Shown here: positions 53,324 to 58,971 of the stretch, piece by piece
How the letters are laid out: the number at the start of each line of letters is the position of its first letter
Position numbering within the stretch: the stretch's first letter is position 1
NCBI GenBank assembly: GCA_903907925.1
Contig: CAIVQB010000104.1
Location: forward strand, 1-59,147
Length of the DNA: 59,147 bases
Source: an uncultured Verrucomicrobiota bacterium
GTDB lineage: Bacteria > Verrucomicrobiota > Verrucomicrobiia > Limisphaerales > UBA9464
Direction of reading: 5' to 3'
Made by a program: the position numbers and the translations under genes
The notes under the pieces: generated by a model
What the model was told of the DNA's origin: nothing
Database searches by the model: none
What the model saw: the letters and a program-made list of their open reading frames with translations, nothing else

Positions 53324-53450
53324 CGGACGATCGTAGTCCGGCCGGCCAGCCTGTCAGCGACAATGCCGGTCCGGTTTCGCCGGGGTGGTATCTTTGCCTT
53401 TTCACTTTTTCCTTTTTCCTTCCCCCATTTGCCTTTTGCCTTCGTCCCTC

Positions 53451-54023
53451 GTGCTGCTCTTCCGCGAAAAAATCCCCACCGACTGGCTGCCCAAGGTGCT
53501 TTCCAACCTGCCGGAGGTGTTGATCGATCATGCGCACCTGGAACGGAAAGCCGCCACGACCGCGCTCAATCTGGAGAAATTCCGACAACTGTTCGACCGC
53601 GTCCACGAACTGAACGCCATCGCCATCGAGGAACTGCAACACTTCGAGTTGGTCCTCCAGTTGTTGCGTCGACGGGGCATTCCCTTCGCCGAACCCCGGC
53701 CGAGCGGGTGGATCAAAGGGCTGATGCGCGCCGTTCGCGGTGGAATCCAGGGGCAGGTGATCGATCATTTGATCTGCTGCGCGCTGATCGAGGGACGGAG
53801 CTGTGAGAAATTTCAGGTGCTCGGCGAGGCGCTCCGGGAGATTGATCCCGAGCTAGCCGCCTTCTATCGGAGCCTGGTGGAATCGGAAGGGAACCACTAT
53901 GCGAGCTACCTGATCATGGCCCGCCACATCGATCTGGCGGAGACGGATCGTCGACTGGACTGGTTTCTCGATCTGGAGGCCGAATTGACCCGACAGCCGA
54001 ATGCAGAACCCATTCTCCACTGA
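53451..54023 (+). CDS. miaE: tRNA-2-methylthio-N6-isopentenyladenosine hydroxylase
   Basis: MiaE hydroxylates the isopentenyl group of ms2i6A37 in tRNAs using a di-iron centre. The 190-residue product has the ferritin-like ligand motifs HAHLERKAA, EELQHFE (ExxH), EGRSCEKF and ESEGNHY (ExxH). GTG 53451 is chosen because the preceding sequence is a polypyrimidine tract and in-frame extensions look non-coding. The gene is divergent from the cupin gene. MiaB and MiaA are not in the window. Confidence 0.85.
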   Translation: MLLFREKIPTDWLPKVLSNLPEVLIDHAHLERKAATTALNLEKFRQLFDRVHELNAIAIEELQHFELVLQLLRRRGIPFAEPRPSGWIKGLMRAVRGGIQGQVIDHLICCALIEGRSCEKFQVLGEALREIDPELAAFYRSLVESEGNHYASYLIMARHIDLAETDRRLDWFLDLEAELTRQPNAEPILH

Positions 54024-55830: not shown

Positions 55831-56877
55831 TCAAGCCTGCAGGGTCTGCAGGATCCGGGCGATGTCGAGGAACGCCATGGCCGGCGCGGAGTTTGGCGCG
55901 GCGACCACCACCGGGATGCCATTGTCGCCGCCTTCGCGGATCGCAGTGAACAGCGGAACTTCGCCCAGAAAAGGAATGCCCTTGCGCTTCGCTTCGGCCT
56001 GTCCGCCGCCGTGGCCGAAGATCTCCACCCGCGAACCGTCGGGCGCGGTGAAGTAACTCATGTTCTCGATCAAACCTAGCAGAGGGACGTTCACTTTTTC
56101 AAACATCGCCACGCCCTTGCGGACGACGCCCAACGAGGCTTCCTGCGGGGTGGTGACGATCACCCCGCCGTCCAAGGGGACGGTCTGGCAGAGGGACAAT
56201 TGCGCGTCACCGGTTCCGGGCGGGAGGTCGACCAGAAGATAGTCCAGCGTTCCCCAATCCACCTGATGAATGAATTGTTGGATCGTTTTTTGAATCATCG
56301 GACCGCGCCAGATCACCGGCTGATCGCCTTCGATGAGGAATCCCATGCTCATCAGCTTCACGCCGTGGGCGACGGGCGGGATGAGCTTTTCTTCCGCGTT
56401 GACGGTCGGGCGCTGGTTCAAGCCCATCATCAACGGGATGCTCGGGCCGTAGATGTCACAATCGAGCAGGCCGACGGTGGCACCGAGTTGACGGAGGGCG
56501 CAGGCGAGGTTGACCGAGCAGGTGGATTTCCCGACGCCGCCTTTGCCCGAGGCGATGGCGATGATGCGGGTCAATCCGGGAATCCGGTTGCGGGCACCGG
56601 TGGACGGCGCGGCGGTCGCGGCCTGTTGCGCGGTGGGAACCCGGACCTGGACATGCGCATCGGTGAGGCCCTCGATTCTGTCGCGGAGGGCCAGGCGGGC
56701 GGCCTCGGCGATTTGATTGCCCAACTCTGGATTGGGAGTCGTCAGTTCGATCATCACGCCGACCGCATCGCCGTCGATCTGGATGTCCTTCACCAAACCG
56801 AAGGAGACGATGTCGCGGCTGTAGCCGGGGTATTTGACCGTCTTGAGGACGGCGAGAATGGCGTCGTGGGTGGTCAT
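55831..56877 (-). CDS. mrp: Mrp/NBP35-family Fe-S carrier ATPase (ApbC)
   Basis: The 348-residue protein has an N-terminal DUF59/MIP18 domain (DAILAVLKTVKYPGYSRDIVSFGLVKDI), then the P-loop ASGKGGVGKST, DCDIYGPSIPLMMG and PPGTGDAQLSL. It carries Fe-S clusters to target proteins. The cluster-binding CxxC found in E. coli Mrp (CSNC in the loop after ENMS) is replaced here by APDG, which also occurs in other bacterial Mrp proteins of this subgroup by recall. It lies downstream of the NifS-like gene on the same strand. Confidence 0.9.
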   Translation of the reverse strand: MTTHDAILAVLKTVKYPGYSRDIVSFGLVKDIQIDGDAVGVMIELTTPNPELGNQIAEAARLALRDRIEGLTDAHVQVRVPTAQQAATAAPSTGARNRIPGLTRIIAIASGKGGVGKSTCSVNLACALRQLGATVGLLDCDIYGPSIPLMMGLNQRPTVNAEEKLIPPVAHGVKLMSMGFLIEGDQPVIWRGPMIQKTIQQFIHQVDWGTLDYLLVDLPPGTGDAQLSLCQTVPLDGGVIVTTPQEASLGVVRKGVAMFEKVNVPLLGLIENMSYFTAPDGSRVEIFGHGGGQAEAKRKGIPFLGEVPLFTAIREGGDNGIPVVVAAPNSAPAMAFLDIARILQTLQA

Positions 56878-56962
56878 TGCGGGCAAAAAACTTAGTGCTT
56901 CAAATGGGAAGGCGCGGAGAGAAAAACGAAGCAATCAGTCTTCAGTGGTCGGAGAATGGTAC

Positions 56963-57343
56963 TCAGTCATGATCACTCTCTTTGAAAATATCCTCGGTTG
57001 AATGTCCAGCAAGCCGTGCTGCTGCGATGACGTGGCTTGGCACGTGAACCAAGAACATGTCGACCGCCGCCTTGATCTCCTCTGGCGTGAATCGCTCAGG
57101 GAAAAGATGCAACGCAACGACGAACGCTGCGTCGGAGCTCCAGTCGGAGAGGTGAAACGCTATTTGGTCGGCGTGGAGGATCTGCTCTTCGGTCGCGTCA
57201 GAGCCGGCAAGTGCCGTAGTAATTGTGGACGTGATCCCTGCTGGAAACGTGCCGCTGTCCAACATCTTCGTGCGGTCGCCAGCCATCTCTGAAAAGATGG
57301 TTTCTACCTTCCTTCTGACTGAATCGTGGGCGTCATCTGGCAT
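56963..57343 (-). CDS. Hypothetical protein, 126 residues
   Basis: The 126-residue protein (MPDDAHDSVRRKVETIFSE at the start, ALHLFPERFTPEEIKAAVDMF in the middle) is helical with no signal peptide and no recognised motif. It lies between the NifS-like gene (14 bases upstream) and mrp (85 bases downstream) on the same strand. Its AT content looks somewhat higher than its neighbours, so transfer is possible. It could be non-essential or specific to this lineage. Confidence 0.55.
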   Translation of the reverse strand: MPDDAHDSVRRKVETIFSEMAGDRTKMLDSGTFPAGITSTITTALAGSDATEEQILHADQIAFHLSDWSSDAAFVVALHLFPERFTPEEIKAAVDMFLVHVPSHVIAAARLAGHSTEDIFKESDHD

Positions 57344-57357
57344 GGGCGCGAAACTTT

Positions 57358-58623
57358 TCAGTGCGCCGCTTTTCCGGAAACATCCGCGGCGTGCTGCGAA
57401 AACGATTTCCCGCGGCCAGTTGGTGCGATCACCGAATCGATGATGCCGCGCTCGAATTCATCCCACATCGGCGACATGCCCCGGAGCTTGGTCGCGATCA
57501 TGGCGAAGGTCTCGATGGTGTAATCGACGTCCTCCTCGGTGTTCACCATTCCGAGGGTCATGATGATGTTGCCCTGGGCGAGGGCGTGATCGAGGCCGAT
57601 GGCACTGAGAACATGCGACACTTTCAACGACTTGCTCACGCAGCTCGAACCGCTGGCGACCGCGATGCCGTTGAGATCGCAGAGGAGCAACTGGCCCTCG
57701 CCCTCGATGAACTCGGTGGAGAGGTTCAGATTGGTCGAAATCCGTTTCGGGCCGGGTTCCGGACCGTTGAGCTTGATGTAGGGGATCCGGGTGCGGAGTC
57801 CCTCCCACAGCCGGTGCTGGAGCCGCGAGGTGTGGGCGGCGCGGCGGGGAAGTTCGGTCAGCGCGATCTCGGCGGCGACGCCACCGCCGACGATGGCCGG
57901 GACGTTTTCCGTGCCCGCGCGGCGTCCGCCCTCCTGAACTCCGCCGTGCATCATCGAGACGATGCGCGCCTTCTTGTTGCGATAGAGAATTCCGACGCCC
58001 TTGGGTCCGTAGAACCGGTGTGGTGAAAAGCTCACCAACGCGGCGCCGAATTCCTTCACATCGACAGGCAACCAACCGGCGCTGGCCTCGCAATCGACAT
58101 ACAGCGGCACGCCCGCCTCGGCGCAAATCCGGCCGGCTTCGCGCACCGGTTGGATCGTGCCGATGTCGTGGTTCACGTGATGAACGGCGACCAGGACCGT
58201 TTGCGGGGTGATCGCCGCGCGCAGGGCTTCGAGATCGATCACGCCTTCGCGATCAACGCCGATCCGGGTGCAGGTCCAGCCCTGTTTTTCGAGGAACTCG
58301 ACCGATTGAATGACACTGGGGTGTTCCGTGGCCGAGATCACCAGGTGCTTGCCCTTGCGCTCGTTGGCGTAGGCGACGCCCTTGATCGCGAGGTTGGCGG
58401 ACTCGGTGCCGTCGGAGGTGAAGAAGATCTCCTCCTCACTGTCGGCATTGATCAAGGCAGCGACCTGCTGGCGCGCCTTTTTCAAGGCATCGCGGACCCG
58501 GAGGCCGTGTTGATGGAGCGATGAAGCGTTTCCGAACGCTTCGGTGAAGAACGGCTTCATCGCGTCGAAAACTTCGGGCAGCACTGGTGTGCTGGACTGG
58601 TGATCGAGAAAAACGTGGCGCAT
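57358..58623 (-). CDS. NifS/IscS-like protein lacking the PLP lysine
   Basis: The 421-residue fold-type I protein aligns end to end with NifS/IscS cysteine desulfurases: H101, D177, GRRAGTEN and Cys328 in SGSSCVSKSLKVSHV are in place. But the invariant PLP lysine of HKxxGPKG is Arg (R203, in SPHRFYGPKGVG, codon CGG), Gln183 is Ala180, and the arginines equivalent to R354 and R359 are Ile and Met. So ordinary PLP Schiff-base chemistry is unlikely. Archaeoglobus IscS likewise lacks the lysine (Asp) and can act as a Fe-S ligand donor. A paralogous true desulfurase presumably exists elsewhere. Confidence 0.9.
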   Translation of the reverse strand: MRHVFLDHQSSTPVLPEVFDAMKPFFTEAFGNASSLHQHGLRVRDALKKARQQVAALINADSEEEIFFTSDGTESANLAIKGVAYANERKGKHLVISATEHPSVIQSVEFLEKQGWTCTRIGVDREGVIDLEALRAAITPQTVLVAVHHVNHDIGTIQPVREAGRICAEAGVPLYVDCEASAGWLPVDVKEFGAALVSFSPHRFYGPKGVGILYRNKKARIVSMMHGGVQEGGRRAGTENVPAIVGGGVAAEIALTELPRRAAHTSRLQHRLWEGLRTRIPYIKLNGPEPGPKRISTNLNLSTEFIEGEGQLLLCDLNGIAVASGSSCVSKSLKVSHVLSAIGLDHALAQGNIIMTLGMVNTEEDVDYTIETFAMIATKLRGMSPMWDEFERGIIDSVIAPTGRGKSFSQHAADVSGKAAH

Positions 58624-58647: not shown

Positions 58648-58971
58648 TCAGGCGTTGGGCAGGAAGTAGAATTTGAATCCCGTGTCGCGCAGGAGGACGT
58701 AGTTGCGGACCGTTTCATCGCCGAAGACCTCCTCGAGGATCCGCAGGTCGACGGATTTCAAATCCAGCGCGTGCCGGCCGAGTTCCATGGGGCCGACGCC
58801 GAATCCGTCGGCCAGCGCGTTGCTCTCATCGGAGTTGAGGGCGACGAAAACGTTGGAAACGATGGTGGCACCCTCGGGTACGTTGGCGTAATCGGATTCG
58901 GGGTATTCCAAGGCATCGACAATGCGTTGGGAATACGGGCCGATGGCGATGATTTGGGCGTCCAGACTCAT
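58648..58971 (-). CDS. Hypothetical protein, 107 residues, beside the NifS-like gene
   Basis: The small acidic protein starts MSLDAQIIAIGPYSQRIVDALEYPESDY and has TIVSNVFVALNSDESNALADGFG, with an end in GFKFYFLPNA. No motif was recognised. It is translated before the NifS-like gene (24 bases apart) and is likely in the same unit. A role as partner of the NifS-like protein is possible but only by location. Confidence 0.65.
   Translation of the reverse strand: MSLDAQIIAIGPYSQRIVDALEYPESDYANVPEGATIVSNVFVALNSDESNALADGFGVGPMELGRHALDLKSVDLRILEEVFGDETVRNYVLLRDTGFKFYFLPNA

Follow-up and report, generated by a model that had tools for sequence, protein, structure and literature searches.

Which function can be served by an IscS/NifS homolog that has lost the lysine for PLP, but has retained the cysteine of the mobile loop? 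This question is raised by a gene of an uncultured Verrucomicrobiota bacterium (Limisphaerales, UBA9464), which is called nifS* here to denote a Lys-less homolog of IscS/NifS. It is located in a stretch of 59,147 nucleotides, referred to as the window, which is the whole of contig C104. An original prediction, made from the sequence of the window, described its product as a degenerate NifS with a changed job, such as an Fe-S scaffold or a sulfur relay. Here, the gene was analyzed together with its relatives, its genomic neighborhood, and the other genes for sulfur mobilization of the genome.

A full-length IscS/NifS homolog with an altered active site

The gene is located on the minus strand and extends from an ATG at position 58623 to a TGA ending at position 57358. 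The frame is open throughout, and the product is full-length with 421 aa. A pairwise alignment with IscS of Escherichia coli (locus L199) was used to map its residues. The gene and selected codons are:

57358 to 58623, minus strand: nifS*, IscS/NifS homolog without the PLP lysine, 421 aa (open reading frame, profile, PDB matches, and predicted fold)
58168 to 58170, minus strand: codon of His152, E. coli Asn155 (alignment; place computed from the reading frame)
58084 to 58086, minus strand: codon of Ala180, E. coli Gln183 (alignment; place computed from the reading frame)
58015 to 58017, minus strand: codon CGG of Arg203, which stands where E. coli IscS has the PLP lysine, Lys206 (pairwise alignment)
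57640 to 57642, minus strand: codon of Cys328, the mobile-loop cysteine (alignment; place computed from the reading frame)
57562 to 57564, minus strand: codon of Ile354, E. coli Arg354 (alignments; place computed from the reading frame)

Four residues of the E. coli enzyme are replaced, i.e., Lys206 by Arg203, Gln183 by Ala180, Asn155 by His152, and Arg354 by Ile354. The equivalents of T76, H104, D180, S203, H205, T243, and C328 are retained as T73, H101, D177, S200, H202, T238, and C328, respectively. The mapping bears out the original prediction for Arg203, Ala180, and Ile354 as well as for the retained His101, Asp177, and Cys328, while the replacement of Asn155 by His152 had been missed. 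Met359 had also been listed as a lost substrate-binding arginine. This carries no weight, because column 359, an arginine in E. coli, varies in Lys-type homologs (Arg 51, Lys 25, and others 24 in the 100 control rows introduced below), and the intact NifS of the same genome has an isoleucine there.

The protein matches the Pfam family Aminotran_5 (PF00266) with 225 bits, and it stays below the cut-offs of both NCBIfam equivalogs (TIGR03402, NifS, 416.8 versus 530.75 bits; TIGR02006, 364.7 versus 643.2 bits). The low score with the NifS model is only a weak sign of inactivity, because the third copy of the genome, which is of the Lys type and encoded on contig C105, is also under the TIGR03402 cut-off (440 bits). 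An AlphaFold model, built from an alignment of 39 rows, has a pLDDT of 90.9, with low confidence at the C-terminus and at residues 329-332, which adjoin Cys328. The best PDB fold matches of the model are human NFS1 (in NFS1-ISCU complexes), E. coli IscS, and Archaeoglobus fulgidus IscS, with TM scores of about 0.85-0.91 by query length. NifS* is thus predicted to have the type I class V fold with a mobile-loop cysteine, and it lacks three residues that are characteristic for active NifS/IscS enzymes, namely, the PLP lysine, Gln183, and Arg354.

In a study of E. coli IscS, desulfurase activity is reported to be absent from the variants K206A, Q183E, and H104Q, some PLP is retained by K206A, and R354K is as active as the wild type (PMC9978102). 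PLP may still bind to NifS*, because the contacts to its phosphate and ring, i.e., the equivalents of T76, H104, D180, and T243, are mostly retained.

The best PDB matches by sequence are the entries 9wep, 9wer, 9wew, 9wfe, and 9wfy. They appear to represent a single desulfurase in several variants with altered active-site residues, and in one of them a leucine takes the position of the PLP lysine. The C-terminal tail of NifS* (window 57358-57423) ends with SGK.AH. This tail is found in 14 of the 14 near members displayed (with AR in L221), and it is missing in more distant members, including the iscU-linked loci L048 and L050.

Conservation and joint loss of catalytic residues

Conservation was counted in 78 loci of the nifS* family, some of them partial, with the gene of the window left out. 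An arginine is present at position 203 in 73 of the 77 relatives that have a residue there (the others are Lys in two, Gly in one, and Gln in one), and Cys328 is present in 77 of 77. Therefore, both residues for which an alignment of relatives had been proposed as a check are conserved. Ala is found at position 180 in 67/77 relatives, and either Ile or Leu at position 354 in 71/76. The equivalents of T76, H104, D180, S203, H205, and T243 are mostly retained, the last of these in 74/78. As a control, 100 rows of Lys-type homologs were used, which were thinned at 85% identity and all of which have the lysine by choice; Gln183, Arg354, and Cys328 are each found in 100/100 and Asn155 in 97/100 of these rows.

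The codons for Arg203 are CGN in 71 of the 73 relatives with arginine, and are thus at least two changes away from AAR, which excludes a sequencing error. In comparison with nine relatives, nifS* has a dN/dS of about 0.04-0.10 (dN 0.054-0.100, dS 0.74-1.68), similar to the values of 0.04-0.11 for the intact NifS paralog (six comparisons), and it is thereby shown to be under strong purifying selection. The word "degenerate" was therefore wrong in the sense of decay, whereas the earlier argument against a sequencing error holds. An erroneous sequence or a decaying pseudogene has nothing in its favor beyond the loss of the catalytic residues, and it is practically ruled out by the arginine in 73/77 relatives, the open frame, and the low dN/dS.

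Lys206, Gln183, and Arg354 are all replaced also in A. fulgidus IscS2 and in homologs from the loci L108 (Asp at the place of the lysine), L103 (Arg), and L125, L133, and L119 (Gln), and H104, D180, and C328 are retained in all of them. The loss of the trio with differing residues at the lysine place looks like a release from catalysis, with the cysteine being retained for another reason.

Two members of the nifS* family have a lysine at position 203, i.e., L041 (genome G059, AAG) and L053 (G060, AAA), and both are devoid of Gln183 and Arg354. L041 nests among members with arginine in the tree, which suggests that its lysine has been regained. An arginine at position 354 is present in L057 and L197. 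Position 354 alone says little, because of these two members and because of the full activity of the E. coli R354K variant.

Distribution and phylogeny

The search for nifS* included 96 related genomes, 50 from the family of the window and 46 others from the order. The gene was found in 49 of the 50 family genomes, in three of them only in pieces, and the exception is a genome with a completeness of 54% (G001). It was also found in 24 of the 46 other genomes, at identities of 40-86%. Among named records, LBMAG Verrucomicrobiota bin2 is the closest by sequence; a Limisphaerales MAG is also close, and its gene forms a pair in the 145-row tree with the gene of a genome from this order. The nifS* clade of the window comprises 38 rows in a 145-row tree (SH-aLRT 100), and it has a support of 100/100 in a 63-row tree that was built without four trait columns. 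L103 and the Gln rows (L125, L133, and L119) are on the same side as this clade of the split from the Lys-type rows (SH-aLRT 94 in the 145-row tree; 97/70, which is moderate, in the 63-row tree). A. fulgidus IscS2 and L108 form a pair (100/95) inside an archaeal Lys-type group (98/93) in the 63-row tree, and this placement suggests a second, separate loss of the lysine. A tree constrained to unite all Lys-less rows in one clade is 33.8 log-likelihood units worse, but it is not rejected (p-AU 0.116).

nifS* belongs to an isc gene cluster in relatives

The 107-aa ORF upstream of nifS* and two genes downstream of it are the following neighbors in the window:

58648 to 58971, minus strand: ORF of 107 aa just upstream of nifS*, without a match in Pfam or NCBIfam
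56963 to 57343, minus strand: ORF of 126 aa between nifS* and mrp
55831 to 56934, minus strand, same direction as nifS*: mrp, encoding a P-loop Fe-S carrier of the Mrp/ApbC type that has a FeS_assembly_P domain at its N-terminus (Pfam and NCBIfam)

The contig ends 176 bases past the 107-aa ORF, so that no iscR and iscU genes are visible in the window. The context becomes apparent in the relatives. In the loci of the window's family plus genome G081, iscU is located upstream of nifS* on the same strand and within 1.3 kb in 46/46 loci with a flank of at least 700 bp, and an iscR-like gene of the Rrf2 type is located upstream in 45/45 loci with a flank of at least 1.3 kb. In locus L205, for example, NCBIfam identifies the neighbors as an Rrf2 regulator and a scaffold of the NifU/IscU type. 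In these relatives nifS* is thus part of an ISC operon with iscU and iscR, and this gene context is the new part beyond the original prediction. In the genome of the window, contig C143 has iscR and iscU as the last genes at its very end, and only the initial 113 codons of iscU are present. Contigs C143 and C104 probably join here, so that nifS* would be linked to iscU also in its own genome, across a contig break. In six congeners that were analyzed, iscU is located 440-1229 bp upstream of nifS* in four, with a homolog of the 107-aa ORF in between in three (63-67% identity), and 133 and 165 bp upstream in the other two.

The motifs CGD, FGCG, and LPxxKxHCS are retained in 48 of 49 neighboring IscU proteins, four of which are from Lys-less relatives outside of the nifS* family (L103, L108, L125, and L133). 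In the SUF-bearing genome G067, the IscU beside nifS* (L048:1635-2024) reads AAAFGD, compared to CGD in the others displayed, and the first cluster-ligand cysteine is thus a phenylalanine.

Downstream of nifS*, the 126-aa ORF matched neither a Pfam nor an NCBIfam family, nor anything in the loci of relatives that were searched. An mrp gene follows nifS* within 100 bp in 9/46 loci of the family plus G081 and in 8/25 loci of other families; within 2 kb it is found in at least 30/46 (some flanks are only 1.5 kb long) and 10/25, respectively. Carriers of the ApbC type are expected to have a CxxC just behind the ENM motif. It is present in none of the 33 Mrp proteins of more than 250 aa with this motif from the window and the loci of relatives, and the protein of the window reads ENMSYFTAPDG. 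The window also contains a gene for a MiaE-type tRNA hydroxylase (53385-54023; PF06175, 150 bits).

nifS* in genomes with and without SUF

In the family of the window, 47 of 50 genomes lack genes for SufB/SufD, and the three genomes that have them (G018, G024, and G036) still have iscU in front of nifS*. Among all 96 genomes, nifS* is present in 55/57 without SufB/D, the two exceptions being 54% and 57% complete, versus 18/39 with SufB/D (Fisher p 1e-8, a value that ignores kinship).

Fifteen SUF-bearing genomes of other families also contain nifS*, at identities of 40-62%. Of these, 14 have a sufficiently long flank, and iscU precedes nifS* in only one of them (G067). For all members with less than 69% identity, the linkage is found in 2/19, i.e., in G067 and the SUF-less genome G080. 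In the SUF-less genome G069, iscU is located elsewhere on the contig with nifS*, and the SUF-bearing genome G065 carries nifS* and, at a completeness of 97%, has no match to NifU_N. Yet Cys328 is retained in every SUF-bearing or unlinked member that could be read. Therefore, docking to IscU is not the whole story in the SUF-bearing genomes of other families, and, among the present results, their weak linkage to iscU speaks most strongly against a role that is confined to IscU.

A Pfam scan of 20 flanking proteins of 15 loci with unlinked or outside Lys-less members did not reveal a common partner shared by many of them. DUF4013 was found in L225 and L227 and PAP2 in L227 and L228, and the only neighbors related to Fe-S clusters or sulfur were in L056 (FeS_assembly_P behind mrp) and L108 (TusA). 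In the latter, a record from Bathyarchaeota, the tusA gene (L108:5578-5985) is directly upstream of the gene for the Asp-type IscS relative, and iscU is located 0.9 kb downstream.

Sulfur supply in the genome of the window

A search for a second, intact desulfurase gene had been proposed, and it was successful. Contig C121 encodes a NifS-type paralog with 583.9 bits for TIGR03402, above the cut-off, which has 39% identity to NifS*. All 11 mapped active-site residues are kept in 30 of the 30 best-scoring intact NifS loci, including the one of this genome, from a search of 58 genomes. A close ortholog of the C121 NifS was detected in 32 of 35 searched genomes of the family; it is missing in G001 (54% complete), in G032 (70%), and in G017 (93%), which has only matches of 44-45%.

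The genome of the window encodes one NifU_N protein. SufB/SufD gave no match in it (14/14 control genomes were positive), and SUF was therefore rejected as its housekeeping system. Similarly, the lack of a match to TusA (11/14 controls positive) led to the rejection of TusA as a sulfur donor in this genome. HscB had no match either, with a weak control (1/14 genomes positive).

Comparison with known systems

The IscS of A. fulgidus has been named as a precedent, and it does share the set of losses with NifS*. It is reported to have an aspartate instead of the PLP lysine, to have no desulfurase activity, and to ligate the [2Fe-2S] cluster of its partner IscU with Cys321 (PMC7585200, PMC9769115). 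Structures are available as PDB entries 4EB5, 4EB7, and 4HVK, and 4R5F for the D199K mutant. Both proteins have the type I desulfurase fold, which is predicted for NifS*, both have lost Lys206, Gln183, and Arg354 (K206D, Q183A, and R354L in A. fulgidus IscS2), and both have kept the cysteine. Both also have a link to IscU, which is described as a partner for A. fulgidus (PMC9769115, PMC7585200) and is known for nifS* from the linkage to iscU in relatives. At the level of genes, nifS* thus appears to match a non-desulfurase IscS of the Archaeoglobus type. However, A. fulgidus IscS2 differs from NifS* in having Asp rather than Arg at the lysine place, in keeping Asn155, in having Asn for His205, and in its identity of only 41-43%, and it is placed among archaeal Lys-type rows in the trees, although one clade of all Lys-less rows is not rejected (p-AU 0.116).

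A further example has been described for Methanosarcina acetivorans, which contains three iscSU pairs. IscS1 (MA0808) is reported to have no catalytic lysine and to be encoded beside iscU1, while the IscS of the other two pairs keep the active-site residues (PMC7585200). Unlike NifS*, this protein is archaeal. L103 (Arg) and L125, L133, and L119 (Gln) have the same three losses as NifS* and a retained cysteine, and the three Gln loci belong to other phyla by record (Chloroflexota and Myxococcota); iscU is just downstream in L103, L125, and L133, and was not found near L119. The families of E. coli IscS and NifS (TIGR02006 and TIGR03402) have the fold, the Cys loop, and the iscR-iscU neighbors in common with nifS*, which in contrast to them has lost Lys206, Gln183, Arg354, and Asn155 and scores under both cut-offs.

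Thus, a Lys-less IscS beside IscU is already known from archaea. A counterpart that spans a bacterial order and occurs in SUF-less genomes was not found among the matches listed in the open-license literature searched, and the titles and openings of abstracts of these matches do not name a Lys-less IscS in Verrucomicrobiota or any other bacterium.

Proposed role of NifS* and alternatives

A changed job, as had been predicted, rather than an error is supported by the conserved residues, the intact NifS elsewhere in the genome, the iscR-iscU context in relatives, and the shared set of losses in A. fulgidus IscS. It is the inactivity of the E. coli IscS mutants together with the reports on A. fulgidus and M. 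acetivorans that leads us to read NifS* as a non-desulfurase partner of IscU. On balance, we lean toward the view that it is an IscS paralog that is still a partner of IscU and lends Cys328 to cluster assembly, with the sulfur coming from elsewhere. NifS* would dock on IscU as IscS does, and Cys328 would be offered as a transient ligand or thiol in the assembly of [2Fe-2S] clusters, as reported for Cys321 of A. fulgidus IscS. The sulfur would stem from the separate Lys-bearing C121 NifS or from sulfide, and the neighboring Mrp carrier may then hand the clusters on. In this bacterial order, two paralogs would thus divide between them the making of sulfur and the docking on IscU, for which E. 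coli uses a single protein.

Alternatively, Cys328 could be loaded with persulfide sulfur, either by the intact NifS or by a different donor, and pass it on to IscU, and NifS* would then be a rhodanese-like shuttle on an IscS fold. This would agree with the presence of Cys328 in all relatives despite the catalytic losses, also in members without a linked iscU, with the presence of an intact NifS, and with the TusA sulfur-carrier gene directly in front of the Asp-type relative in L108. However, no TusA is detected in the genome of the window, and the A. fulgidus precedent points to a ligand (PMC7585200), so that we regard a relay as rather unlikely. With regard to Cys328 itself, ligand and relay would both fit the present data. 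Desulfurases of this type form homodimers, and the phosphate of PLP is contacted by a residue from the other subunit (T243 in E. coli). NifS* might therefore pair with the intact NifS as a hetero-dimer or regulatory subunit, and activate it or place it on IscU. The retention of this threonine in 74/78 relatives and the co-occurrence of a close C121 NifS ortholog in 32/35 family genomes are compatible with this idea, but this role would not require Cys328, and with only 39% identity the two proteins should not have a dimer interface in common, which makes it improbable. Even a little less probable is a still active or new PLP enzyme, which would hold PLP or a PLP-substrate adduct non-covalently and continue some chemistry, perhaps with another substrate. 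The mostly retained equivalents of T76, H104, D180, S203, H205, and T243 and the residual PLP in E. coli K206A would allow for it, but Lys, Gln183, and Arg354 are all lost, and K206A and Q183E are reported to be inactive as desulfurases (PMC9978102).

The preferred reading, a non-desulfurase partner of IscU, can tentatively be extended to the whole order, in a possible though doubtful scheme. The ISC machine would be split between a separate NifS, which makes the sulfur, and an IscU-linked pseudoenzyme, which uses Cys328 for holding or relaying. In SUF-bearing relatives the pseudoenzyme would have left IscU, and it would work with Mrp or alone as a holder of clusters or sulfur.

If the preferred reading is true, IscU, on which the clusters are built in the SUF-less genomes of the order, has an operon partner that is unable to make sulfur. 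Two roles of IscS, the making of sulfur and the docking or cysteine ligation on IscU, would be parted here, which reside in one protein in E. coli, and the puzzle of the Archaeoglobus IscS would become a recurrent theme in bacteria and archaea. It would also be a warning for annotation, because homology alone would name such Lys-less proteins cysteine desulfurases. In addition, many natural variants (Arg, Gln, Asp, Gly, and Lys again) would be at hand for asking about the role of Cys328 in cluster assembly, and L041 and L053 represent natural tests of what the lysine alone restores. The Gly or Gln variants at position 203 are found in L172/L227 (G360) and L197/L228 (G137), which belong to another family of the class, and both have a PAP2 gene downstream.
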